DNA of 60,007 bases, from NCBI GenBank assembly GCA_902554885.1, contig CACDPV010000007.1:1-60007 (forward strand). The letters are read 5' to 3'. The DNA comes from Paracoccaceae bacterium. GTDB taxonomy: Bacteria > Pseudomonadota > Alphaproteobacteria > Rhodobacterales > Rhodobacteraceae. The translations under genes and the position numbers were made by a program. Below the pieces are notes generated by a model that was not told where the DNA came from, searched no databases, and was given only the letters and a program-made list of their open reading frames with translations. This document shows, piece after piece, positions 8,006 through 59,597 of this stretch (position 1 is the stretch's first letter; each line of letters starts with the position of its first letter).

Positions 8006-8692
8006 ATGAACCAAAAAGAGTTTTTTTTAGGCGTAACCGCTATGCTTCCTCTATTACTGGGGGTTGTACCGTTCGGCTTGGTTTTTGGAGTTCTTGGTAT
8101 AAGCAGTGGCCTCACAGAAACTGAGACTATCTTAATGTCGAGTATTGTTTTTGCAGGAGCTAGTCAGGTTGTTTTTGTACAATTGTGGGCTGCTGGCTCT
8201 GCTTATTTTGTAATTGGCAGTTCAGTAGCACTTATTAATTTGAGACATGTTTTATATAGTGCTTCAGTAGCTGAATACCTTAAAAAGCTAAGTTTTAAAT
8301 GGAGAATAATTCTAGGTTACTTATTGACTGATGAGTCATTTGCAGTATCCATAAAAAGACTAAGCACTCACGGTGAAAGTAGACCCGTTCATTTTTTCAT
8401 GCTTGGTTCAGGCCTTACTCTTTGGCTAGCATGGCAAATTTCGACAATTGCGGGAGTAATTGCAGGTTCCACTATACCTGAAAATTGGGAACTTGCATTT
8501 GCTATACCCCTAACCTTTATAGCAATAGTAGTCCCATTGTTAAAAAATACTCCCACTATTATTTGTGCACTAATCTCCTGCTTAATTGCTATTTTTGGTC
8601 AATCATTACCTTGGAACACGTGGATAATAGTGGCTGCTCTTGGAGGAATTTTGGCCGGTGCCTCAATCGAAAAATGGAAACCCAGAAAATGA
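8006..8692 (+). CDS. azlC: AzlC family amino-acid exporter, large subunit
   Basis: Large membrane subunit of the two-component branched-chain amino-acid exporter AzlCD. The family signature is at the front, PLLLGVVPFGLVFGVLGISS, then FAGASQVVFVQL and a NLRHVLYSAS segment typical of AzlC. About six hydrophobic helices are visible. The start at ATG 8006 is tentative: a GTG at 7967 is also in frame and neither has a clear ribosome-binding site. The stop overlaps the next start in ATGA, so translation is coupled to azlD. The substrate in this organism is unproven. Confidence 0.88.
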   Translation: MNQKEFFLGVTAMLPLLLGVVPFGLVFGVLGISSGLTETETILMSSIVFAGASQVVFVQLWAAGSAYFVIGSSVALINLRHVLYSASVAEYLKKLSFKWRIILGYLLTDESFAVSIKRLSTHGESRPVHFFMLGSGLTLWLAWQISTIAGVIAGSTIPENWELAFAIPLTFIAIVVPLLKNTPTIICALISCLIAIFGQSLPWNTWIIVAALGGILAGASIEKWKPRK

Positions 8693-8985
8693 TTTGGTTA
8701 GTTATGGTTTTGACTGGGTTAATTAATTTTATATTTCGCATTTCTATGTTTTCTGGATTTCGCAATATCCATTTACCACCATCATTTCATCGATATGTTA
8801 GTTATGTACCTATTTCAGTACTATCAGCAATAATAGCAAGCAGCCTTGTTACCCATAATGGTCACGAAATTTCCTATGACGTGGGAAAACTAGTAGCAGC
8901 ATTCATAGCAGTTGCATGTGCATTGTTAACCAAATCCGTTTCAGTAACACTAATAGTTGGTTTGATAACAGTTTGGATAATATAG
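8689..8985 (+). CDS. azlD: AzlD family amino-acid exporter, small subunit
   Basis: Small membrane partner of AzlC, 98 residues with three or four helices (MIWLVMVLTGLINFIFRIS, YVPISVLSAIIAS, the final VTLIVGLITVWII). The short pattern of an Arg in the first helix and proline-containing VPISVLSA is typical of AzlD. The start ATG 8689 overlaps the azlC stop by 4 bp; an upstream in-frame ATG at 8674 would lengthen it by five residues. It is too short to annotate alone with certainty, but its place after AzlC makes the call firm. Confidence 0.87.
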   Translation: MIWLVMVLTGLINFIFRISMFSGFRNIHLPPSFHRYVSYVPISVLSAIIASSLVTHNGHEISYDVGKLVAAFIAVACALLTKSVSVTLIVGLITVWII

Positions 8986-9189
8986 AATTAAAATCGTTGT
9001 AAAATAAACCGTGTGATTGAATTTAAATATCTATGTTTAGAGGTATCAAGCAACAAGTATTCTATTTCACATCGTTATATGGTTTAATGAAACTTGAATT
9101 ATCAGGGTTTAATCAAAGTCCATAACCAGAATGAGTTGGTTAATTTCTAAAGAGACAAATTCCCATTCATATGTCTGGATATACGTCAA

Positions 9190-10074
9190 TTGACTAACGA
9201 TGGAACATTTAAAGCAATAACCTGGTTGATATTTTCAATCATCTGCTTCGACCTTATGGCAGTTCATATTCGATATCTTACTAACACTTATACCGCTGAA
9301 GAACTCTCTTTCTATAGAAATACTCTCGGCCTTATCCCAAGCTTATTACTACTATATATAACCGCCGAACTTTCATTAAACTTCAAAGATTATAAAATTA
9401 AGCAATGGAAGCTTGCCTTTTTTCGTGGACTTGTAGTGGCACTTGCTCAGCTACTTTTCTATACCGCGATAAGTAAACTAGAACTCGCAACAGTTGCAAC
9501 TTTAGGACAGACGGGCCCTATATTCATTGTGATTTTAGCAATAGTGCTTTATAAAGAGTATGTCGGCATCTGGCGATGGGCAGCTATTTTTACTGGCTTC
9601 TTTGGCGCAATTTTAGTAATCAGACCAGGAAGTGATATTTTTACCTGGAATTCACTACTCCCCATCGGCGCATCATTTTGTTATGCTCTATCAATAGTGA
9701 CCCTTCGCAGTTTTAAACGAGAAATTTCAAACTCTATATTATATTTATACTCCGCAATTGCGGCAGCATTTGGTGCGGGTCTATATGCCAGCTTGTCAAT
9801 CACGTTCACACCAATTCAAAATTACTTTGATGCGACGCTGCTATTATCAATGTCGTTCTGCGGGGGATTTGGTGTAGTATGCCTCATGATTGCCTACAGG
9901 GCTGCAGAAGTCTCAGCAATTGCACCATTCAACTATTTCGGGATATTATCGGCTTTTATACTAGGCTGGGTAATTTTTGGTGAATTCCCAGTAGAAACAT
10001 TATTACCTGGCGTTCTTTTTATAGTTGCAGCAGGTTTGGTTATTATATGGCGAGAAAAGATTAATAAAAATTAA
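9190..10074 (+). CDS. EamA/DMT family transporter
   Basis: Ten-helix drug/metabolite-type transporter of the inner membrane, 294 residues in two EamA repeats of five helices. ELSFYRNTLGLIPSLLLL in the first repeat and the PIFIVILAIVLYKEYVGIWR segment are typical, as is the second-repeat end SAIAPFNYFGILSAFILGWVIFGE. The probable start is a TTG at 9190; the next in-frame Met (residue 24) would remove helix one. Eleven bp separate it from the aldolase gene, so the two are likely one operon and the transporter may move that pathway's substrate. This is one of three DMT genes in the window. Confidence 0.87.
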   Translation: MTNDGTFKAITWLIFSIICFDLMAVHIRYLTNTYTAEELSFYRNTLGLIPSLLLLYITAELSLNFKDYKIKQWKLAFFRGLVVALAQLLFYTAISKLELATVATLGQTGPIFIVILAIVLYKEYVGIWRWAAIFTGFFGAILVIRPGSDIFTWNSLLPIGASFCYALSIVTLRSFKREISNSILYLYSAIAAAFGAGLYASLSITFTPIQNYFDATLLLSMSFCGGFGVVCLMIAYRAAEVSAIAPFNYFGILSAFILGWVIFGEFPVETLLPGVLFIVAAGLVIIWREKINKN

Positions 10075-43696: not shown

Positions 43697-43712
43697 AGCA
43701 ATATTTGTGCCA
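43697..43712 (-). promoter_or_regulatory. Sigma-54 -24/-12 element for flgE
   Basis: Minus-strand TGGCACAAATATTGCT matches TGGCAC-N5-TTGCW perfectly. It is in the 88-bp gap between flgD and flgE, 41 bp upstream of the flgE ATG. It would drive flgE and flgF. Confidence 0.88.
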
Positions 43713-45287: not shown

Positions 45288-45303
45288 TGCAAGTAGTGTG
45301 CCA
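45288..45303 (-). promoter_or_regulatory. Sigma-54 -24/-12 element for flgB
   Basis: Minus-strand TGGCACACTACTTGCA is a perfect match to TGGCACRNNNNTTGCW. It overlaps the 5' end of the longest flgB frame, so it decides the flgB start. The divergent unknown gene begins 19 bp away at 45322. Confidence 0.88.
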
Positions 45304-45321: not shown

Positions 45322-45777
45322 ATGGAAGATCAAAAAGAAGAAGTTCTTACGCCATATACTTTAGCAGATCGTAACGAGACACTTGTAAAATACGCAAATT
45401 TTTCTTTTACAGCAGCGTTAGAAGAAGTAAAAGGCGAGCTTAAAGTAGAAAAAGATTTCCACAAACGACTTGGATTATTGGCAGCCCAAAGCTGGATTTT
45501 AAGAAAAAAATTATACGTTGCGCTGCATGATCCGTACATATCAGCCTTAAGCGAGATTGAGGATACAGATATTTTTGATGGATTAGATGAGGATGATTAT
45601 AACGATTATGATAGTCTTTTCGATGAAGATACCCCAGAGGTTAAGATCGAAATTTTAATCCTAAAAGAAACTACGATTGCTGGGAAGAAAATTGCAAAAG
45701 ACACAATTGTCGAAATAGAAGAAAAAGAAGCAAAAAGCTTGATTAAAGCGGGTAACGCAAAATTAAATTCCGAGTGA
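45322..45777 (+). CDS. Unrecognised acidic protein divergent from flgB
   Basis: A 151-residue protein, not recognised. Residues 1-75 look helical (TAALEEVKGELKVEKDFHKR), then comes a very acidic stretch (FDGLDEDDYNDYDSLFDED) and a small C-terminal beta unit, VKIEILILKETTIAGKKIAK, ending in EAKSLIKAGNAK, like a short SH3-like or phage-head-tail capping unit. It starts 60 bp from the revised flgB start on the opposite strand. The location suggests a role in flagellar gene control or assembly, which nothing in the sequence proves. Confidence 0.55.
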   Translation: MEDQKEEVLTPYTLADRNETLVKYANFSFTAALEEVKGELKVEKDFHKRLGLLAAQSWILRKKLYVALHDPYISALSEIEDTDIFDGLDEDDYNDYDSLFDEDTPEVKIEILILKETTIAGKKIAKDTIVEIEEKEAKSLIKAGNAKLNSE

Positions 45778-45842: not shown

Positions 45843-46265
45843 CTATAAAACCGGATATCGCCAGCTCAAGTCATAAATTTCGAGGGAGAGACCAGAGTTT
45901 CTCATCGTTGCCTCACCATTATTGCCCTCTAAGTATCTTGAGGTGCTTAGAAAAAAAGAAGCTGGACGTGGTGAGTTAGGCAAACATAATAAATCTTTTA
46001 ATTCATCAAAACTAATTTCAGATAAATTTACAAAAGCAGAAGCAACCGGTCGATTTTTTGAGAACTTAATTGATCCTATTGGGCCAAGGTCTTGGTTTTG
46101 TCGCGAAAAAATTATTGTACAATTTACCTTTGGAATTTCTGAAATATCGCAGGATACCGATATTTTCGAAGTATCTCGCATACCACTCTTTATTATATCA
46201 CTGCTTAACAACGTTAAATGTAATGAAAATTCTTTAATTGGCTTTCCATGCTCAATGTCACGCAT
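45843..46265 (-). CDS. Unrecognised protein downstream of fliA
   Basis: Protein of 140 residues. The ATG at 46265 was chosen over TTG 46280; GAGAG is about 8 nt upstream. It overlaps the 3' end of fliA by 8 bp, so it is in the flhA-flhF-flhG-fliA operon. The body is beta-rich (LTLLSSDIIKSGM, VNCTIIFSRQNQDLGP) and ends in ISLEIYDLSWRYPVL-like strands (actual end LEIYDLSWRYPVL). No family is recognised. A place at the end of this operon hints at chemotaxis or flagellar number control; a guess only. Confidence 0.6.
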   Translation of the reverse strand: MRDIEHGKPIKEFSLHLTLLSSDIIKSGMRDTSKISVSCDISEIPKVNCTIIFSRQNQDLGPIGSIKFSKNRPVASAFVNLSEISFDELKDLLCLPNSPRPASFFLSTSRYLEGNNGEATMRNSGLSLEIYDLSWRYPVL

Positions 46266-46965
46266 TAACTTGGCTCTCAATTAATTCGCGCAAGGCTTTA
46301 ACTGCTGCTGATTTAATTTGCGAAACTCTACCAGTTGAAACTGAAAGTACCTCGGCAATTTCATACACATTAAGCTCTTCTACGTAGTATAGTTGCAAAA
46401 CGAGTAATTGCTGTTTATTCAAGCGCTCTATATTCTCTCGCAATATACCTTTTAACTCTCCATTCAGGATCTTCTCTTCAACACTCGGATCACCTGAGAA
46501 TAAGAAATCTCCATATGCTTCTGTAGCTTCCTCTATACTTTGATGTTTGCTCGCGGCAAAATCATGTTTCCACGACATTAATTCTGATACTTCAATTTTT
46601 AGTTCGGAAGCTACTTCTTCGGCCTGTGGCAGCCGCTTGTGCTCAATCTCTAATTTTCTACTTGCCTTATCAAAATCCTGTTTTCTCTTGATAGTACCCC
46701 TGCATAAATTCGATGACTTTCGTAGAAAGTCAATTATCGCCCCCTTAACACGCAAGCGTGCATAATTTTCAAATACAACACCTTCATGTGGTTGATAGTT
46801 ATGTGCTGCTTCAATCAGACCAACCATTCCAATTTGAAGTAAATCTTCAATCTCCACAACTTGGTGTACACGACCTAAATAATAATATGCGATCTTTTTA
46901 ACGATACTCATATTTTTGTTTATGAGCTCGTTTTTATCATCAGATTTTTGCGTGTAACCGTGCAT
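46258..46965 (-). CDS. fliA: FliA, flagellar sigma factor sigma-28
   Basis: Sigma-28 for late flagellar genes. Region 2 reads VEIEDLLQIGMVGLIEAAHN, with FENYARLRVKGAIIDFLRK; region 4 has a helix-turn-helix, NVYEIAEVLSVSTGRVSQIK. It has 235 residues, close to typical. ATG 46965 follows an AGG-type ribosome-binding site, whereas the frame upstream to 47028 would overlap flhG by 47 bp. Its anti-sigma FlgM is encoded at 53663. FliA is common in gammaproteobacterial systems and rare in alphaproteobacteria. Confidence 0.94.
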   Translation of the reverse strand: MHGYTQKSDDKNELINKNMSIVKKIAYYYLGRVHQVVEIEDLLQIGMVGLIEAAHNYQPHEGVVFENYARLRVKGAIIDFLRKSSNLCRGTIKRKQDFDKASRKLEIEHKRLPQAEEVASELKIEVSELMSWKHDFAASKHQSIEEATEAYGDFLFSGDPSVEEKILNGELKGILRENIERLNKQQLLVLQLYYVEELNVYEIAEVLSVSTGRVSQIKSAAVKALRELIESQVNA

Positions 46966-48857: not shown

Positions 48858-50963
48858 TTACTCGGTTTCTTCCGAAGCATCAGTTCCACCAACGGTGTAA
48901 GCTATCTCTACACTACGGTTTTCGGGTAGTTCAGTAAAGCTTAGAACATTTACAGCCGAAAGTTGAGCCCGAACAAATTGAGCAACATGTCGTCGGATTT
49001 GTGGCGCTACTATGAGAAAAATTGCCTTGTTTTCGCGACTTAGTGTTTCTGTTGCATCATTAAGGTTTTGCAAGATCTTTTTTGCTAAGGCACCATCTAG
49101 AAGTAGCATTTTTTCATCTGGGTTCTGCCGGACCGCAGTTAAGATCATCTGCTCTAGTTCTGGAGCTAAAGTAATCAATGGAAGTGTGTCTTTAAATTTA
49201 GTTAACTTTTGGATTAAAAGCGGTATTAATTTAGGTCGAATTGCTTCTGAGATGTCATCGTTAGACATTTTTTGAATATTCAAGCCGCCAAGTTCAGTAA
49301 GTATTACCTGCAAATCTGAGATTGGAACAGCTTCACTCAGTAGATTTTGCAGTATGCTTGTTAACTGATGCAAAGGAACCAACTTAGGCACAACAGACTG
49401 CACGAGGTTTGGATGTGAAGACTCCAAATTGTCAAGCAAGTCTTGGACTTCATCCTGCCCCAAAAGCTCAGCAGAAAAGTTATTCAACACCTGGCCAACG
49501 TGCGTGATTAATACTGACGTTGGATCGATTGTAACATAACCTTTTGATTTTGCATCAGTTGCTAATTCAGGCTCGATCCAGTAGGCCTCAACTCCAAACG
49601 ATGGCTCCGTGACTTTTGTGCCAACAAGTTCAACTTGCACGTCATCACCTGGTATGGCTAAGATTTTATCATAGAAAATGAGATCATCAGCTACAATTTT
49701 CTCCCCAATCTTGATTTGGTATTGAGAGGGCTCCAAATCCACATCATCTCTAATTCGTATACCAGGAATTACAAAACCTAATCGCTTAGAAATTTCCTTA
49801 CGTAATTTAGTTACGCTGGGAACGAGGCTATCTTCGTTCTCTTTAGACACGAGGCTCACTAATCCATAGCCTATATTTAGAGAAATTTTTGATGCATCTT
49901 TAACCGAATTGACGTCAAAATCAGAGGTCTCGTCTTCACTTTCAGTCTCTGACTCTTCATCACTTTCGTTCATCAATGATTGCTCCTTTCTTCGCGATAA
50001 GAAGGCTAATAAGCCTGCAATTGCAGCAAAAAAGAGAAATAGTTGATTGGGCATACCTGGAACTAATCCAAGAGCGAGAATAACTAGAGATGTAGGCATC
50101 CATGCTGCAGATAGGTTTACCTGCTTTGTTATGTGCTCAGACATATTTTGGGCTGACGACACTCTTGTCACAATAATTGCTGTAGCTATTGATAACAATA
50201 ACGAAGGTATTTGAGCGACTAATCCATCGCCAATAGAAAGAAGAAGGTAAGCTTCTGCAGCTTGACCGATCGGCAAATCATGTTGAACAAGACCAATTAT
50301 TAAGCCGCCGATAATGTTTACGAGTAAAATTAAAATGCCGGCTATCGCATCCCCTTTAACAAATTTTGACGCACCATCCATAGAGCCGTAAAAATCTGCT
50401 TCCTTAGTAACCTCTTCTCTTCGAGCTTTTGCCTCATCTGGAGTTAGAATGCCTGCATTTAAGTCAGCATCAATTGCCATTTGTTTTCCAGGGAGTGCGT
50501 CGAGAGTAAAACGTGCCGATACCTCAGAAACACGCCCTGCACCTTTCGTTATTACGACAAGGTTGATAATCACCAGGATCGAGAAAACGAAGATACCGAC
50601 TGCATAGTTTCCTGAGACAATAAACTCCCCAAAAGCCTCAATAACTTTTCCAGCTGCATCTGGACCTGTATGCCCATCTTTTAAAACAATTCTAGTTGAC
50701 GCTACATTTAAGCCCAGGCGGAGTACTGTAGCAATGAGCAGAAGGTTTGGAAAAGAAGAAAAATCTAAAGGCCGATGCGTATGCATCGCAACCATTAGGA
50801 TCAATAGCGATAAGGTGATATTCAAAACAAAAAAGGTATCTAGTAAAGCAATGGGAAGCGGTAATACCAGCATTGCTACAAGAGCTATTATCCCAAATGG
50901 TAACAGTGAGTTAACAAAATTTGGCCCAATGCCTTTTAAAGTTATTGATTGCGTTTCTTGCAT
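48858..50963 (-). CDS. flhA: FlhA, flagellar export gate component
   Basis: Large inner-membrane gate of the flagellar type III export apparatus. About eight helices fill the N-terminal half, with the FHIPEP-type region (GLNVASTRIVLKDGHTGPDA, SARFTLDALPGKQMAIDAD). The cytoplasmic C-terminal domain follows an acidic linker (ESETESEDETSDFD) and includes the VIDPTSVL-like segment YVTIDPTSVLITHVGQVL. 701 residues, normal. A sigma-54 element is 105 bp upstream. It is the only export-gate gene in the window; flhB and fliP/Q/R are not here. Confidence 0.97.
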   Translation of the reverse strand: MQETQSITLKGIGPNFVNSLLPFGIIALVAMLVLPLPIALLDTFFVLNITLSLLILMVAMHTHRPLDFSSFPNLLLIATVLRLGLNVASTRIVLKDGHTGPDAAGKVIEAFGEFIVSGNYAVGIFVFSILVIINLVVITKGAGRVSEVSARFTLDALPGKQMAIDADLNAGILTPDEAKARREEVTKEADFYGSMDGASKFVKGDAIAGILILLVNIIGGLIIGLVQHDLPIGQAAEAYLLLSIGDGLVAQIPSLLLSIATAIIVTRVSSAQNMSEHITKQVNLSAAWMPTSLVILALGLVPGMPNQLFLFFAAIAGLLAFLSRRKEQSLMNESDEESETESEDETSDFDVNSVKDASKISLNIGYGLVSLVSKENEDSLVPSVTKLRKEISKRLGFVIPGIRIRDDVDLEPSQYQIKIGEKIVADDLIFYDKILAIPGDDVQVELVGTKVTEPSFGVEAYWIEPELATDAKSKGYVTIDPTSVLITHVGQVLNNFSAELLGQDEVQDLLDNLESSHPNLVQSVVPKLVPLHQLTSILQNLLSEAVPISDLQVILTELGGLNIQKMSNDDISEAIRPKLIPLLIQKLTKFKDTLPLITLAPELEQMILTAVRQNPDEKMLLLDGALAKKILQNLNDATETLSRENKAIFLIVAPQIRRHVAQFVRAQLSAVNVLSFTELPENRSVEIAYTVGGTDASEETE

Positions 50964-51179: not shown

Positions 51180-51195
51180 TGGCACATAAGTTGCT
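51180..51195 (+). promoter_or_regulatory. Sigma-54 -24/-12 element for flgP
   Basis: TGGCACATAAGTTGCT is a perfect consensus match, 32 bp before the flgP ATG. It faces away from the flhA element in the same intergenic region, so one bound activator could serve both directions. Confidence 0.88.
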
Positions 51196-51227: not shown

Positions 51228-51770
51228 ATGTTCTCAGTACATAAATGGAACCCGTTTATTTTAGTTTTATCGAGCACCATATTATTGACGGCCTGTTCTA
51301 TAACAAATCCCCTTACCCAACAGGCATTCTCGTTAAATTCTGAAAGAATTAATCAAATTACTCCAGGAGCTGGAATAACTAGTTCTACTAATTTACTGAA
51401 TGAGCGGAGAGACGCTGAAACATCCAAGTATTACGTTCCTACAATTACTGCGGTTGGTTTTTCGTCAATTGCCATTCAACCATCTAAAAGTTTAAACCAG
51501 CGAAGATTGATGGCGATGCGTGCCGCCAAATTAGACGCCTATCGAAGTTTGACAGAACAAATTCACGGTATTTATATTCAGGGCGAGACCACTGTAGGTG
51601 AAGCTGTACTAACTTCAGATAAGTTGGGAGCAGCACTTCGCGGTACTGTTATGGGTGCTAGAACGGTAAAAATTGAACCTACAGGTAGTGACACATATCA
51701 AGTCGAACTGTCTGTCAGCCAAACGCACATTGATCGGCTTTTAAAATCTTATCGTCGAGGACTTCTTTAA
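51228..51770 (+). CDS. flgP: FlgP-like LPP20-family lipoprotein
   Basis: Outer-membrane lipoprotein of 180 residues. The lipobox is LTAC with Cys23. Conserved LPP20/FlgP features are TAVGFSSIAIQPSKSLNQRR and MAMRAAKLDAYRSLTEQIHG, then the C-terminal VELSVSQTHIDRLLKSY. FlgP forms part of the H ring around the basal body in Vibrio and of the basal disk in Campylobacter. It is followed by flgT and flgA, so this is an outer-ring/P-ring operon with its own sigma-54 promoter. Confidence 0.85.
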   Translation: MFSVHKWNPFILVLSSTILLTACSITNPLTQQAFSLNSERINQITPGAGITSSTNLLNERRDAETSKYYVPTITAVGFSSIAIQPSKSLNQRRLMAMRAAKLDAYRSLTEQIHGIYIQGETTVGEAVLTSDKLGAALRGTVMGARTVKIEPTGSDTYQVELSVSQTHIDRLLKSYRRGLL

Positions 51771-51787: not shown

Positions 51788-52903
51788 ATGAAATTTATCA
51801 AGTTTATATCCGTTGTACTTATCATCCTCCAATTTGCTGTTGGAAGTGTTCAGGCAGCATCTACGGTTATATCAGAAGGTTTTGCGGCGATTACATCTGA
51901 TATTCACGTAAAAGAGTACAGAAAGCGCGCTATCGAAAACGCTTTGCAAAATATTGCTTTTGATAGAGAGCAAGCGTTAACTAGTTTCACAATAATTGAA
52001 AATGGTCAAATGCTTATTGATCAAGTCAGGTCAACCTCAAAAGCAGGTATCTTGAGCTATAAAATTTTAAAAGAAGAAAAAAAAAATAAAACTTACTATG
52101 TGAAAATTGAAGCGGTAGTACAAGACGCTAATAATGATGGTGAAGGTCAAATCAAATTAGACTTTTGTCGACAGACTAACATATCTAAGATTAACCTGGA
52201 CGTGGCTTTATATCTTGACAGACAGCAATTTCCACCGTGGATGAATTTAGATATTAATTGGCTAAAATCTGAAATAAAAAAGGCTAACCTTAAACCCAAG
52301 CTTTCATTTGTTTCTGCCAACCGATCAACAAGCAGCAATAACGATCTTTACACCCTTTTTGAGAAAAATGACACAAATTTAGATATTCAAACTTTATATC
52401 AAATAAACTTGATGCTAAAATTAGATAAAGCTCGGAATGAGACTTTCTTTGTACAAAACAAAAAACTCAGCATGGCGTTTACCTCAGAAATTTTGAGAAA
52501 CGGGCGAATTATCGAAAACGATACTGAAAACTTTCACTTTATTATTGCAAAGAAATTTGGAACAGGAATACCGGTTCAAAATAATAAAAAAATCTGGCAA
52601 TCTCAGAAAAAGCAGATCGCATCTGTAATAATTTCTGAACTTAACCAGCGGCTTGACCAACTTAAGTGTATGCCTATTAGAGCCAAACTTAAACAAACAA
52701 AAGCTAAATATTTTATACAATATGGGACAATTGATGGAATAAAAGAAAAAGACATTTTCATTCTAGAAACGCCTGAAACACAGAAATTTTATTTCAAAGT
52801 AGCAGATCTTGGAAGGGCAGAGACATTCCTAGAATTAATCTCTCAAGCCGGAAATATTGAAGTCAAAGACGGTCATACCGTAAGAATTGTTGAGGGCTTA
52901 TGA
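51788..52903 (+). CDS. flgT: FlgT-like flagellar H-ring protein
   Basis: Exported protein of 371 residues. The signal peptide ends near VQAASTV, then the FlgT N-terminal domain with EYRKRAIENALQNIAFDREQ and the middle domain; the end holds the C-terminal SH3-like unit QYGTIDGIKEKDIFILETP. It fits Vibrio FlgT, which builds the H ring with FlgO and FlgP. No flgO is next to it. The stop overlaps the flgA start by 4 bp (ATGA). Confidence 0.82.
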   Translation: MKFIKFISVVLIILQFAVGSVQAASTVISEGFAAITSDIHVKEYRKRAIENALQNIAFDREQALTSFTIIENGQMLIDQVRSTSKAGILSYKILKEEKKNKTYYVKIEAVVQDANNDGEGQIKLDFCRQTNISKINLDVALYLDRQQFPPWMNLDINWLKSEIKKANLKPKLSFVSANRSTSSNNDLYTLFEKNDTNLDIQTLYQINLMLKLDKARNETFFVQNKKLSMAFTSEILRNGRIIENDTENFHFIIAKKFGTGIPVQNNKKIWQSQKKQIASVIISELNQRLDQLKCMPIRAKLKQTKAKYFIQYGTIDGIKEKDIFILETPETQKFYFKVADLGRAETFLELISQAGNIEVKDGHTVRIVEGL

Positions 52904-53622
52904 GATTTTTATATGCTATAATTAATTATCGTTTACTATTCATATTGATATCTTTTTGGCCAATGTTATCTCAGGCTAACGATATTCTTTATGGTAAGGA
53001 TATTAAATACCAAGCTTCAAAATTCTTCAAAGAAATTGGTATAACAGGTGAAATACTTACTTCTGATAGACGTGCGTTTTTTAGTTGTACAGAAGACTTA
53101 GAATTCAGCCCACACGTTCAAAATGATTGGCGAACTGTGCGAGCAAAATGTAAAAGCCAAAATTGGCAATCAATTCTTCGAACCACCGCAGTGGCACCCA
53201 ACGACACTTTTGAAAAAAAACAGGGTGGTTCATCTTTATCCCAGGTCGTGAGTATCGTAAGTAATATGTCAAAGGGCCAAATCATTGGCGAGGAAAATCT
53301 AGCGCTTGTCTCCATGCCCAACCAAAAGGTTTTTGAAGGTTTTACAAGGATCGAGGATCTGGTTGGTAGAAAAGTCACCAATAATTTAGCGAAAGGTACT
53401 ATTTTAAAGCCACGGCACGTAAAATTTCGGTTAAATGTAAATAAAAATGATACTGTCCTAGTTATTTTGGGTAATAGTAAATTATCGATCACTACCTACG
53501 GCATTGCATTAGCATCTGGACAGAAGGGTGATTTAATCACAGTAGAAAATATAAAATCAAAGAAAACTTTCAAAGCTATTGTATTAGACGAAAAAAAAGT
53601 TACCCCTTTAGCTAACATGTAA
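52900..53622 (+). CDS. flgA: FlgA, P-ring assembly chaperone
   Basis: Periplasmic chaperone for FlgI. A signal peptide is at the start (LLFILISFWPMLSQAND). The C-terminal SAF-type domain reads EDLVGRKVTNNLAKGTILKP and then the terminal GIALASGQKGDLITVENIKS with the NxxSxKxx motif. 240 residues, normal. Translationally coupled to flgT (4-bp overlap), and followed after 40 bp by flgM. Confidence 0.94.
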   Translation: MRFLYAIINYRLLFILISFWPMLSQANDILYGKDIKYQASKFFKEIGITGEILTSDRRAFFSCTEDLEFSPHVQNDWRTVRAKCKSQNWQSILRTTAVAPNDTFEKKQGGSSLSQVVSIVSNMSKGQIIGEENLALVSMPNQKVFEGFTRIEDLVGRKVTNNLAKGTILKPRHVKFRLNVNKNDTVLVILGNSKLSITTYGIALASGQKGDLITVENIKSKKTFKAIVLDEKKVTPLANM

Positions 53623-53662: not shown

Positions 53663-53968
53663 ATGGTAGACTCAGTTAGAAATAGTCCTAATTTGGGTGG
53701 TCTGACTGTCCACGATCAGAAGAGATCAAATGTTTCTGGTGGCCAAGCAAGCCAGTTGGCTGAAAATGGAAACGCGCAAGCTGATAAGTCTTCAGTAAGC
53801 ATAGATTTGTCTCTTAGTGAGAAAGTCAGTTCGTTAGCGGGCTCGCCTCCTATTAATATGGAGCTTGTTAATGAAATTCGTGAAAAGGTTGAACAGGGAA
53901 GATATCCTATTGACCTAGACGCGATTTCATCAAAACTGTTTGAGAGCATTCAAGACGCGGAAGGCTAG
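53663..53968 (+). CDS. flgM: FlgM, anti-sigma-28 factor
   Basis: Binds FliA and is exported once the hook-basal body is finished. It has 101 residues, with a disordered Ser/Gly/Asn N-terminus and C-terminal sigma-binding helices, VNEIREKVEQGRYPIDLDAI and SSKLFESI. AAGGAG gives a strong ribosome-binding site. It lies next to flgA and a probable flgN, the gammaproteobacterial arrangement flgA-flgM-flgN. Confidence 0.92.
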   Translation: MVDSVRNSPNLGGLTVHDQKRSNVSGGQASQLAENGNAQADKSSVSIDLSLSEKVSSLAGSPPINMELVNEIREKVEQGRYPIDLDAISSKLFESIQDAEG

Positions 53969-53974
53969 GTAAAC

Positions 53975-54262
53975 ATGGATATAGATAAGCTGCTGGAAAC
54001 CATCGCAGTAATCTCACAAATCCTCAATACGCCTAGCCTAACGACCCAAATTGATAAAGACCCAGACTTGGGGATTAAAGTAAAAGAATTTGAAACGCTT
54101 GTTGAAAAAATTAGGGCTCAACAGGGCGATTTTTCTGTTTCTAATGAAAACCTTAAAAAGATATTCAATGAACTGTACTCGGTTATCGTAGAAATTGATA
54201 ATTACTGCGATTTAAATTTACGGAAGTTGAATTTTTTGAATAACTTAAAGCCGTTAAGTTAA
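53975..54262 (+). CDS. Probable FlgN export chaperone
   Basis: A 95-residue all-helical protein. Position directly after flgM (6 bp) is that of flgN, the chaperone for FlgK and FlgL. No sequence motif was certain; LETIAVISQILNTPSLTTQI and FETLVEKIRAQQGDFSVSNE are amphipathic. It is shorter than most FlgN (about 140). Its last 4 bp overlap the 3' end of the convergent Sel1-repeat gene. Confidence 0.6.
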   Translation: MDIDKLLETIAVISQILNTPSLTTQIDKDPDLGIKVKEFETLVEKIRAQQGDFSVSNENLKKIFNELYSVIVEIDNYCDLNLRKLNFLNNLKPLS

Positions 54263-54876
54263 TTAGTTTTAATAATGTTTTCAAAAACTTTTTGAGCTTC
54301 TTCTTGTTGCGCCAAAACTTCTTCTAGCGTCATCTGGCCAGCCGCTTCCTCAAGAAGTTCATTAGCTCTTTCTTCACCGTAGGCCTGTGAAATGGATAAC
54401 CACAGGTATGCTGGCTTATTTTGTGCCTCAACAAATAAACCTAAGTAAGTTTTTCCAAGTTTTAGCGGAGCAGCCTTATCAGCCGCCTGAGCGATTAAAA
54501 GCATCTCATCAATAATAGTTTGCGCAACGGAGTTACGGAGTTTCTCGTCAATCAAGTCATAGATGATGTTTACTCTATTAATAGCAGTCTCGTGATCATT
54601 TAGATGAGCTTGCCAGGACCAATACAAAGCTAACCTGTAGTTTTTTGGGACCCCTAATCCATTTGAGTAAAGTAATGCTAAATTAAATTGTGCCTCAGGA
54701 ATTCCTTGATCAGCTAAAGTTGAAAAAATTTCATACGCTTCAAAAAATCTTTTTTTCTCAATATGTTTTACTGCCGTTTTAAAGTCTGAATCAACGGAGC
54801 TTTTCTGATGGCTCTCGGCACCCAACATTGTTGAATAAAATATAAGCAGGCATGTGAACAAAATATTTTTAAACAT
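54259..54876 (-). CDS. Exported Sel1-repeat protein
   Basis: Signal peptide (MFKNILFTCLLIFYSTMLGA) and Sel1-like repeats: AYEIFSTLADQGIPEAQFNL with LLYSNGLGVPKNYRLALYWS, plus a later partial repeat AYLWLSISQAYGEERANE. 205 residues. Sel1 repeat proteins act as scaffolds; the stator protein MotX of Vibrio is one such, but the usual MotX sequence pattern is not evident. The ATG overlaps the stop of the upstream gene (TAATG), so it is translated with the NHLP-like protein. Confidence 0.75.
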   Translation of the reverse strand: MFKNILFTCLLIFYSTMLGAESHQKSSVDSDFKTAVKHIEKKRFFEAYEIFSTLADQGIPEAQFNLALLYSNGLGVPKNYRLALYWSWQAHLNDHETAINRVNIIYDLIDEKLRNSVAQTIIDEMLLIAQAADKAAPLKLGKTYLGLFVEAQNKPAYLWLSISQAYGEERANELLEEAAGQMTLEEVLAQQEEAQKVFENIIKTN

Positions 54877-55292
54877 TACTCTTCCGCCACCATAATCAGT
54901 TTTAACTCAAGAATTTTTCTTCTTTTTTTATTTCCGTTTTCATACACGACTACTTTTGGTCTGCTTTTATCTTTCTTCATAAATTCAACAGATATATGAT
55001 CTGGCAAATAAACGCCACCACGCTCAAGTATTTCTTCTGGATATTCATAAAATGCTTCCAAAAAGCGCTTGTCTATCCAAGTCCTCGCCAGTGCCTGACC
55101 CAACACCTCAGGAAGAAACTCCTGAATTTGATCCTCAGTTTCCAATACAATATCCTGATCACTAAACCGCGATAAATCCTGTTCGTCAAGATAGTCTAAG
55201 ACTGGTCGAGATTGAGATCTCTTCTTTAAAATGGATCCTATTTTTTTCTTTATGATATCAAACAAGCGAATGTCCTCGGAAAGCCACACCAA
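54876..55292 (-). CDS. Small protein with NHLP (nitrile-hydratase-type leader) like domain
   Basis: A 138-residue protein. The middle reads ALARTWIDKRFLEAFYEYPE followed by EILERGGVYLPDHISVEF, the spacing and key residues of the NHLP/nitrile hydratase alpha leader fold (A..W.D..F......P...L...G...P). The Cys metal-binding triplet of true nitrile hydratase alpha subunits is absent. The first 60 residues are basic then acidic and not recognised. Starts possible at TTG 55292 or GTG 55289. It is translated with the Sel1-repeat gene downstream. Which role it has among flagellar genes is unknown. Confidence 0.6.
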   Translation of the reverse strand: MVWLSEDIRLFDIIKKKIGSILKKRSQSRPVLDYLDEQDLSRFSDQDIVLETEDQIQEFLPEVLGQALARTWIDKRFLEAFYEYPEEILERGGVYLPDHISVEFMKKDKSRPKVVVYENGNKKRRKILELKLIMVAEE

Positions 55293-55389: not shown

Positions 55390-56463
55390 TTGAAACCATT
55401 AGATAAAAAAATAATTGGACAATCCCCTGCTGCAGTTCAATTAAAAAAAATGATTGCACTCATTGCCCCTTCGGACGCTCCAGCGATAATTTATGGAGCC
55501 ACTGGATCAGGAAAAGAACTAGTCGCAGAGGCACTACATGAAGAGAGTAGAAGAAAGGGACGGTTTGTTACAGTCAATTGTGCTGCAATTCCAAAAGAAT
55601 TAATTGAAGCAGAAATTTTTGGCTTTGAAAAAGGTGCTTTCACTGGTGCCGTTAAATCAACGACCGGTAAATTTGAGCAAGCTCAAAAAGGCACACTGTT
55701 CTTGGATGAAATTGGAGATATGCCGGCTGATCTTCAAACTAAATTACTGAGAGTATTAGAAAATTCGGTAATTTCCAAAGTTGGAAGTAATTCAGAAGTG
55801 AAATTAGACGTTAGAATTATATGCGCGACACATAAAAATTTGTCTGAAATGGTTGCTGACAATAAATTTAGAGAGGACCTGCTTTTCAGATTGAATGTTT
55901 TTCCAATTGATGTCCCTGATCTATCCCAACGCCATGAAGATATACCAGAAATAATTGAGCACTTTATTGAAAAGAAAAGCTTAAAAAGTGGTTCTACTTC
56001 CCGACCAATTTTTGATGCAAAAGCACTTGAAGTTCTGCAAAAGCATGACTGGCCTGGTAATATTCGCGAGGTCCGGAATATTGTAGAAAGAGCGATGGTT
56101 TTTTTTCCCAAAGCAAAGATATCTGATGAAGATGTTAAAAAGTATCTCCTAAGAATTGACAGTGATATCGTTATCAGAGCCGAGGAACAGGATGCTATTT
56201 GGTTAGGATTGGACGAATTAGGTAAAAATATATCACCTCCTGAACAGACATTGGCAGACGCCAATCCACCATCTCCAAAAGATTTTGCCAATTGGTTTGA
56301 TACAAATAATTCTGTTGATTTGAGATCACTTCTTCGAGACATCGAAATAGTTTTTATAGAAGCGGCAATGGACAGAAATGGCGGGAACACTAGCGAGGCA
56401 GCCAAGGACCTTAAATTAATAAGAACAACTTTGATTGAGAAAATAAGAAAATATGGAATTTAA
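55390..56463 (+). CDS. Sigma-54-dependent activator (FleQ/FlrC-like), no receiver domain
   Basis: AAA+ bacterial enhancer-binding protein that remodels sigma-54 RNA polymerase. Walker A is GATGSGKE (36-43), the sigma-54 contact loop GAFTGA is at 82-87, and Walker B is GTLFLDEIGD. A C-terminal Fis-type helix-turn-helix is NTSEAAKDLKLIRTTLIEKI. The protein starts almost directly at the AAA+ domain: no receiver or FleQ N-terminal domain. It is the likely activator of the six sigma-54 elements found here. TTG start. Confidence 0.9.
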   Translation: MKPLDKKIIGQSPAAVQLKKMIALIAPSDAPAIIYGATGSGKELVAEALHEESRRKGRFVTVNCAAIPKELIEAEIFGFEKGAFTGAVKSTTGKFEQAQKGTLFLDEIGDMPADLQTKLLRVLENSVISKVGSNSEVKLDVRIICATHKNLSEMVADNKFREDLLFRLNVFPIDVPDLSQRHEDIPEIIEHFIEKKSLKSGSTSRPIFDAKALEVLQKHDWPGNIREVRNIVERAMVFFPKAKISDEDVKKYLLRIDSDIVIRAEEQDAIWLGLDELGKNISPPEQTLADANPPSPKDFANWFDTNNSVDLRSLLRDIEIVFIEAAMDRNGGNTSEAAKDLKLIRTTLIEKIRKYGI

Positions 56464-58394: not shown

Positions 58395-59597
58395 TTAGTC
58401 TTCATATGAAATTTCAATTTCAATGCGTCTATTTTTTTCTCGACCAGAGGCAGTAGCATTATCTGCAACGGGTTCCATTTCACCTTTACTGACTGCCTCA
58501 AGACGATCACCACCAATTAATCCAGTGTTCTGGATGGCCTGAACCACACTGGCTGCTCGGCCAGCGCCTAAATCCCAATTATCTCTGAATTGTCCATTAG
58601 AAATTGGTACATCGTCAGTGTGCCCTGTGACTTTTATCGAGCTGTCCGGGCTCATTGCCGACAGCGCAATTCGGTCAATAATTCTTTGTGCCTCTTCTGT
58701 AAGGTCAGCAGTACCAGAAGGAAACGCCCCTCCAGACCCTACGGTTACAAATACTTTACCTTCTCTTTGCTCTACTTCAATCAGACCTTGGTCAATCTGC
58801 TCCTTAAGAGCAACGGTAAGTTCTTCAGTGGTTCTCGATGCTATTCTCTCTTCCTCACCTTCGGATGATGAACCGCCCTGCCCTTGCCCATCTTGCGGCA
58901 AGCTTTCATCAATCGCCGCAGCAAGTTTCTCAAGTTCTTGTTCAACACCTCCAAACAAAACTTCACTTTCCGATGCACCCGACTTTTCTCTAGCTTCGTT
59001 TAATGCTTCAAGCGTTTCGGCTATCATTGTGCTGACGTCTTCATCTGAGGTTTTTTCTTCCGGAAAATTAATTACGACATTTTCACCAAGTGTCTCTACT
59101 GTCACTTCACCGGTATCGATAGCCTTCTTCAGTTGCTTAGCTAACTCTTGGGCATCAAGCTGCTCCTCACCCTCGCCACCAGCACCTTCAAAATCAGACT
59201 GGCTTTTCTTTTCATCACCCGTTCCTTCAGGAGACTTTTCTGTGTCAGTTTTTAACTCCAATTCGGGTTTTTGAAGTTCTGTCGTATCCTGTCGTAAAGT
59301 AGTTGAAATAGAAGGATCTGGATTAGGACTAAAATTCAATTCAATTACTGTCGTACCTTTTGGTTGCTCAACCACAGGCACAACCTTTTGGACGCCAAAC
59401 GCTTCTTTTAGGGAACCAGAAATTTGTTTAAACTTTGGCACGTTAAATTCAGCAAAAGATAAAATTAGAACGAAAAACGCCATAAGAAGTGTCGCCATGT
59501 CGGCAAATGTTGCCATCCAAGCGGGAGCACCAGCTGGGGGGCATTTAGGACAGTCTTCTTCGTCCTGTTCTTCGTCGTCTAATGCTTCTTCCGCCAT
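58395..59597 (-). CDS. pomB: PomB/MotB-type stator protein
   Basis: Peptidoglycan-anchored half of the stator. The helix with the essential Asp33 is TFADMATLLMAFFVLILSFA, preceded by CPKCPPAGAPAWM, a PomB-like front; after it comes FKQISGSLKEAFGVQ, again PomB-like and associated with sodium-driven motors. The OmpA-type domain holds IKVTGHTDDVPISNGQFRDN and ends NRRIEIEISYED. The region between has 250 residues, rich in Glu/Ser, with a repeat: QLKKAIDTGEVTVETLGENV and ALKEQIDQGLIEVEQREGKV. Sodium use is an inference. Confidence 0.92.
   Translation of the reverse strand: MAEEALDDEEQDEEDCPKCPPAGAPAWMATFADMATLLMAFFVLILSFAEFNVPKFKQISGSLKEAFGVQKVVPVVEQPKGTTVIELNFSPNPDPSISTTLRQDTTELQKPELELKTDTEKSPEGTGDEKKSQSDFEGAGGEGEEQLDAQELAKQLKKAIDTGEVTVETLGENVVINFPEEKTSDEDVSTMIAETLEALNEAREKSGASESEVLFGGVEQELEKLAAAIDESLPQDGQGQGGSSSEGEEERIASRTTEELTVALKEQIDQGLIEVEQREGKVFVTVGSGGAFPSGTADLTEEAQRIIDRIALSAMSPDSSIKVTGHTDDVPISNGQFRDNWDLGAGRAASVVQAIQNTGLIGGDRLEAVSKGEMEPVADNATASGREKNRRIEIEISYED

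Follow-up and report, generated by a model that had tools for sequence, protein, structure and literature searches.

A Leader-Fold Protein and a Sel1-Repeat Protein Are Paired in Flagellar Gene Clusters of Marine Alphaproteobacteria

Introduction

What might a protein with a leader-type fold be doing among flagellar genes? The question is raised by a small open reading frame in a stretch of 60,007 nucleotides of Paracoccaceae DNA (contig CACDPV010000007.1; hereafter the window), in which a preliminary description had noted a resemblance to the NHLP (nitrile hydratase leader) fold, which occurs in RiPP leaders and in a single family of enzymes. Analysis of the window and its relatives indicates that this frame and the gene behind it form an unnamed two-gene module in the flagellum clusters of many free-living ocean bacteria, which looks like an unrecognized accessory part of the motor. 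Literature searches on NHLP, SAR116, Planktomarina, flagella, and Sel1 returned no description of the pair in the library covered, and to our knowledge little work has been done on flagellar accessory proteins in SAR116 and its oceanic relatives. The module offers a defined gene pair for study and suggests that leader folds can be docking domains outside natural-product biosynthesis.

Results and Discussion

The Gene Pair in the Window

The frame as first listed was confirmed at 54876-55292 on the minus strand, and its product has 129-138 residues depending on the start codon. The start is probably the TTG at 55265 (residue 10 of the listed frame), which is preferred because a GAGG lies 8 nt upstream of it, no GAGG-type site stands in front of the TTG at 55292, and the 129-aa orthologs start at the equivalent position. 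The pair sits on the minus strand, with flgM on one side and a FleT-like sigma-54 activator on the other, in the following setting:

48858..50963, minus strand: flhA
51228..51770, plus strand: FlgP-like LPP20 lipoprotein, 21.4 bits, below the cut-off of 25.9
51788..52903, plus strand: FlgT-like (H-ring) protein, FlgT_N 25.1 bits, below the cut-off of 28.8
52900..53622, plus strand: flgA
53663..53968, plus strand: flgM, confirmed by profile
53975..54262, plus strand: position of flgN, no FlgN profile match (Pfam, NCBIfam)
54259..54876, minus strand: Sel1-repeat protein gene, exported-looking, 205 aa, start overlapping the NHLP gene stop
54876..55265, minus strand: NHLP-fold protein gene, probable true extent, 129 aa, TTG start
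55390..56463, plus strand: sigma-54 activator, FleT-like, divergent neighbor, receiver domain absent among Pfam matches
58395..59597, minus strand: PomB-type stator B subunit, best chain 1.4e-49, named "Flagellar motor protein"

The preliminary description had placed the frame between flgN and the sigma-54 activator. The activator stands; the flgN assignment drew no profile match, and flgM next to that position was confirmed. The activator at 55390-56463 is taken to be like FleT in having no receiver domain. Coupling to an exported Sel1-repeat protein, also proposed earlier, is seen at the junction, a TAATG stop/start overlap with the NHLP-fold gene upstream and the Sel1 gene downstream, and in a single Sel1 match of the downstream product (PF08238, E 1.6e-9), whose N terminus is signal-peptide-like as judged by eye only. 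No signal peptide is evident in the NHLP-fold protein. The stator subunit matched PomB-named chains at 2.5e-49 and 1.1e-48 and MotB chains far more weakly, at 2.8e-23. Two small proteins of the flagellar cluster, at 45322-45777 (plus strand) and 45843-46280 (minus strand), have no Pfam match at E ≤ 0.001 and are also found in relatives with the same layout.

Kinship with NHLP Leaders and Nitrile Hydratase Alpha

On profile evidence, the family is homologous to the fold of NHLP leaders and nitrile hydratase alpha, which upholds the resemblance first noted. Residues 62-116 of the protein match positions 4-58 of 77 in TIGR03793 (E 8.9e-7), at 28.7 bits and hence below the curated cut-off of 50.9 bits, and a Pfam search with the window sequence alone gave nothing at E ≤ 1. 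At family level both profiles matched: TIGR03793 all 47 aligned orthologs at E ≤ 0.01 (best 3.6e-9) and Pfam NHase_alpha 21 of the 47 at E ≤ 0.1 (best 0.0022). A PDB search with a seven-sequence family profile gave eight matches at E < 0.001, every one of them nitrile hydratase alpha or an NHLP/proteusin leader construct, with nitrile hydratase alpha 1v29 the best (1.6e-5) and the proteusin leader 8tb1 at 2.2e-4. A crude set of nitrile hydratases, compared by profile, reached only 62% over 35 columns.

An AlphaFold2 model built from 47 sequences (pLDDT 82.4, pTM 0.75; residues 1-17 under pLDDT 50) has predicted helices at residues 44-64, 66-74, and 76-82 and strands at 91-96, 104-110, and 115-122. 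VIA-align ranked an unrelated phage protein first (Z 5.0), then 8tb1 (Z 4.9, rmsd 3.7, 69 aligned) and 9cjx (Z 4.8, rmsd 3.3, 74 aligned), both weak matches; Foldseek placed 8tb1 second, again weakly (E 0.37). Such low Z values prove nothing alone, but the predicted fold agrees, if weakly, with the sequence profile on leader-fold kinship.

The profile match over the helical part and the order of three helices followed by strands are shared with NHLP/proteusin leaders (TIGR03793; 8tb1, 9cjx). In contrast to these, the window family has an extra strand region, a variable N-terminal extension, and a flagellar context, and is without the terminal GG/GA and core peptide. Nitrile hydratase alpha (PF02979, TIGR01323) shares the Ala-x-x-Trp-x-Asp-x-x-Phe type spacing and supplies the best PDB match; the window protein is shorter, and the metal-binding Cys segment is missing. 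Indeed, the window protein contains no Cys at all, so the absence of the metal-binding triplet is confirmed. In nitrile hydratase alpha the metal-binding motif is CxxCSC, which was found in 12 of the 30 central frames of other TIGR03793-match loci (L009-L038), where a crude frame choice often took another frame.

Leader Hallmarks

According to PMC2887384, NHLPs have lost the metal segment and carry both a Gly-Gly cleavage motif and a hypervariable core. The Cys ligands are likewise missing here. Profile kinship with TIGR03793, together with the AG that many members have close to the C terminus (MMAGR ends the chain in 19 of 47, MLAGR in 10 of 47), could be taken to mean that the NHLP-fold protein is a true RiPP precursor of this class. 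Where searched for, however, the other features of such a precursor were missing. No GG or GA lies within the last 12 residues in any of the 47 family members (nine have GG elsewhere in the chain, not near the end), and the chain stops only a few residues past its last conserved strand, so there is no core peptide. Cys is absent from 44 of 47 members, with no Cys column common to three or more, and the NHLP-type peptidase ABC transporter TIGR03796 was over the cut-off in none of eight carrier genomes, one of which is only 53% complete (G000). With cleavage site, core, conserved Cys, and transporter all missing, a precursor was rejected as extremely improbable. What looks like an ordinary NHLP-type peptide, outside the family, is seen in another of the Rhodobacterales (G100), where a 105-aa TIGR03793-matching protein (L042:8803-9120) lies beside a 626-aa protein and, within the stretch read, not near any flagellar genes.

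Conservation of the Pair

Relatives were sought in one genome per species over 84,980 species; 181 were found, and the best 80 of these, which are not independent species samples, form the census. By their records they are SAR116, Rhodobacteraceae, Planktomarina, PS1, and other Alphaproteobacteria, mostly SAR116 and Planktomarina-like bins; a few are named Flavobacteriaceae, Arcticimaribacter, Rickettsiales, or Proteobacteria, and some look mis-binned. Immediately downstream of the NHLP gene, 78 of the best 80 relatives have a Sel1-profile ORF, which overlaps it in 36 (by 4 bases in 30), follows a gap of 1-4 bases in 29, and follows a larger gap of up to 91 bases in 13. Of the two other loci, L062 has a Sel1 match further on and the DNA of L074 ends 116 bases past the gene. 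Flagellar neighbors, counted as blastp matches at E ≤ 1e-5 to the window's flagellar genes within the locus DNA (3.9 to 20 kb), numbered at least one in 72 of 80 loci and at least three in 62, with flhA present in 58. The preliminary description had left it to be seen whether the pair recurs in other flagellar clusters. It does: in marine alphaproteobacteria the two genes are paired and usually lie in a flagellar context. Neither outcome that would have spoken against the earlier description, a missing profile match with another predicted fold or a pair lying mostly apart from flagellar genes, was observed.

Eight of the 80 loci contained no flagellar gene (L067, L072, L104, L105, L113, L119, L123, and L128), most of them on short contigs. 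L119 begins inside the NHLP gene; the other seven resemble one clade, and in fuller loci of what seems to be the same clade (L108, L114, L118, L122, and L126) motA and motB are about 8-9 kb away, not very close, and genes that look bactofilin-like by eye lie just upstream. These eight loci and the distant motAB count against reading the pair as a flagellar module.

The pair occurs in differing layouts, such as the window order (L041), the SAR116 layout, and a position beside flgM (L152), where a divergent NHLP gene and a 360-aa protein with a weak Sel1 match adjoin flgM. In G285, after flgP-, flgT-, flgA-, and flgM-like genes and about 7 kb from motAB, a divergent NHLP gene precedes a 360-aa protein whose Sel1 similarity is weak (22.3 bits, cut-off 30.7). 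A second NHLP gene in G482 (L153:9542-9934) has no Sel1 neighbor and lies 265 bases after a flagellin gene (8446-9276), a placement seen in this one SAR116-family genome only. An annotated SEL1-like gene near flagellin (L151:15459-16052) belongs to a similar flagellar cluster on the Octadecabacter arcticus plasmid pOA238_118, which has several insertion sequences; no NHLP match lay within the 42 kb read. In view of G482, G285, and pOA238_118, the NHLP and Sel1 genes are usually, not always, together. Two queries against a plasmid collection found no NHLP relative.

Other genes recur around the pair. Upstream of it, one marine clade has tandem genes that were judged bactofilin-like by eye (L043:10401-11497 and similar loci; cluster 12, 13 loci) and that hint at a link to cell-pole scaffolds. 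In SAR116-type loci the pair is followed by a small exported-looking protein, for example L154:11279-11800, with no Pfam match at E ≤ 0.1; comparable proteins are found downstream elsewhere too (clusters 13, 31, and 59).

Distribution among Genomes and Absence of FlbT

Among 385 genomes of the class, 18 matched an NHLP search and nine were counted as carriers (E 1.3e-16 or better). The nine weaker matches (E 1.1e-7 to 5.8e-4, in frames of 190-231 aa) were dropped as probable nitrile hydratase alpha by length and score. FlhA (E ≤ 1e-100) was present in 9/9 carriers and 210/376 others (Fisher p 0.012, relatedness ignored); in the carrier G285 it falls below the curated cut-off. A comparable test for FlhF was discarded: the profile matched 276 of 385 genomes, three of them over the cut-off, and 9 of 14 controls, presumably through related GTPases. 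In the window's order TIGR03793 matched 95 of 149 genomes, mostly in longer frames taken as nitrile hydratase alpha; the three short-frame cases read (G116, G145, and G160) all carry the pair. An NHLP query matched 44 of 61 genomes in the family of G482 and, in a sample of the phylum, 1 of 140, the window's own. Two extra NHLP copies in G593 were taken as bin contamination, since their contigs match in length those of L053 and L059, which are close to the window's genus.

None of the nine carriers, all FlhA-positive, has FlbT, which is present in 124 of the 210 non-carriers that have FlhA (p 0.0004, relatedness ignored); FlaF was found in 1 of 12 carriers tested, against 3 of 3 comparison genomes picked from relatives already known to bear FlbT. 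The single FlaF, in G145, is on a different contig from the pair, in a genome with two FlhA genes. This pattern, the NHLP copy beside flagellin, and the occurrence of NHLP without Sel1 would fit an NHLP-fold protein that regulates flagellin synthesis or export in place of FlbT/FlaF, the Sel1 protein being a separate periplasmic part on the same transcript. We consider such a regulator unlikely. The FlbT association ignores relatedness, and four of the nine carriers belong to one family and two to another; moreover, FlbT is also missing from 86 of the 210 FlhA-positive non-carriers, and the placement beside flagellin is confined to one genome.

Co-variation and Promoters

Distances were compared in a mirror-tree analysis over 35 non-redundant loci. 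NHLP identity tracked FlhA identity (Spearman 0.84), and the NHLP-fold protein was the better conserved partner, with a mean identity of 0.48 against 0.31 for Sel1. The NHLP-Sel1 correlation of 0.59 became a partial rank correlation of -0.16 given FlhA, so there was no extra co-variation between the two. Such behavior points to inheritance in common with the flagellar cluster and lends no support to a special NHLP-Sel1 contact. The earlier suggestion that the fold directs or times a secreted protein is not borne out, given this value and the missing leader features.

The same values bear on a version of this idea in which the NHLP-fold protein specifically helps the Sel1 protein to be assembled or secreted. 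In favor of such a helper is how tightly the genes are paired, in 78 of 80 loci and with overlap in 36, yet the Sel1 protein has a signal-peptide-like N terminus of its own, and each gene can occur without the other (the second copy in G482; pOA238_118). With no extra co-variation and a helper better conserved than its supposed client, a dedicated role of this kind appears improbable.

Sigma-54 and sigma-28 consensus patterns were scanned in 89 regions upstream of the pair, including near-duplicates of the same contigs. Sigma-54 sites at up to one mismatch were seen in 2 of the 89 regions, against 0.9 in ten shuffles, and sigma-28 sites showed no excess. In the window, exact sigma-54 -24/-12 matches occur at 43698-43712 (minus strand), 45289-45303 (minus strand), and 51180-51194 (plus strand), immediately before flgE and flgP and at the start listed for flgB; at up to two mismatches the window has 54 sites, a count reached in 10 of 100 shuffles.

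The Sel1 Protein and MotX

The Sel1 protein is modeled with confidence as a solenoid (pLDDT 94.0), and the model resembles many Sel1/TPR proteins. The Sel1 profile matched MotX chains weakly (E 7.7e-4 to 1.6e-3), across some of the repeats and far behind unrelated Sel1 proteins. Foldseek placed the MotX entry 8z5n at rank 35 (E 0.13), and this entry was not among the 50 matches listed in a further comparison. MotY_N was found in none of 12 carriers, with a single profile that matched no control genome over the cut-off.

MotX of the Vibrio-type T-ring (8z5n, 9yfg, 9yed, 9yec) is likewise a small Sel1-repeat protein with a signal-like N terminus, and the window encodes a PomB-type motor with FlgP- and FlgT-like proteins. 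The window protein differs in having only generic repeat similarity (E about 1e-3), in the failure to find MotY, and in having an NHLP-fold gene partner. In gammaproteobacteria, Na+-driven PomB motors accompany MotX/MotY and FlgO/P/T rings, according to PMC6375700. Another close known system, the Fla1 motor of Rhodobacter (Cereibacter) sphaeroides, has FlgT, FlgP, and the second sigma-54 activator FleT and, as PMC7277832 reports, no MotX/MotY homologues; it differs in using MotF, and the NHLP-Sel1 pair goes unmentioned in the part consulted. The Fla2 system of C. sphaeroides is reported to have two other periplasmic stator helpers, MotK and MotE (PMC10954123), and three flagellar cluster types are described for the Rhodobacterales, with four uncharacterized proteins needed in the fla1 type (PMC12363192). 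Given the PomB-type stator, the ring proteins, and these MotX/MotY comparison motors, the exported Sel1 protein would be a reasonable functional counterpart of MotX, by analogy and with no claim of orthology.

A Possible Role in the Motor

The reading we favor, which we regard as evenly balanced between right and wrong, is that the pair is a conserved accessory module of the flagellar motor, with the Sel1 protein a MotX-like periplasmic scaffold and the NHLP-fold protein an inert cytoplasmic adaptor. The link to flagella is itself well supported, and the molecular roles are inferred. The exported Sel1 solenoid would act in the periplasm as a scaffold of the stator or H-ring, doing next to the PomB-type stator what MotX does in Vibrio. 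The NHLP-fold protein would stay in the cytoplasm as a non-catalytic adaptor and would use its three-helix face, together with the added sheet of three strands, to hold a conserved flagellar protein during assembly or activation; candidate clients are the export gate, FlhF/FlhG, and the stator. The leader fold would then serve as a protein-protein docking domain, and RiPP enzymes make use of just this property of NHLP leaders, which dock a partner enzyme through structured surfaces; in one such leader a three-helix bundle opens the chain and the enzyme docks through it (PMC12455567).

In favor of a motor module are the pairing in 78 of 80 loci, FlhA in 9/9 carriers, the PomB-type stator, the FlgP- and FlgT-like proteins, the lack of MotY_N, the confidence of the Sel1 model, the tracking of FlhA by NHLP, and the G482 copy beside flagellin without Sel1. 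Against it stand the lack of a promoter excess, the weak MotX matches, the absent extra co-variation, and pOA238_118 without NHLP; in addition, the MotY absence comes from one profile without a true positive, and the FlgP and FlgT matches are below their cut-offs. More tentatively still, the NHLP/nitrile hydratase leader fold may have been taken up, together with a new Sel1 stator scaffold, as a part that builds or helps assemble a MotY-less, PomB-type (probably sodium-driven) motor in some of the motile bacteria that are common in the surface ocean.

One more gene was observed beside the stator genes of relatives. An exported-looking protein with an Lcl_C domain (PF07603) is encoded divergently next to motA (L044:913-1386 and L043:16981-17481; cluster 21, nominally spanning 24 loci), and it is a possible further motor accessory.
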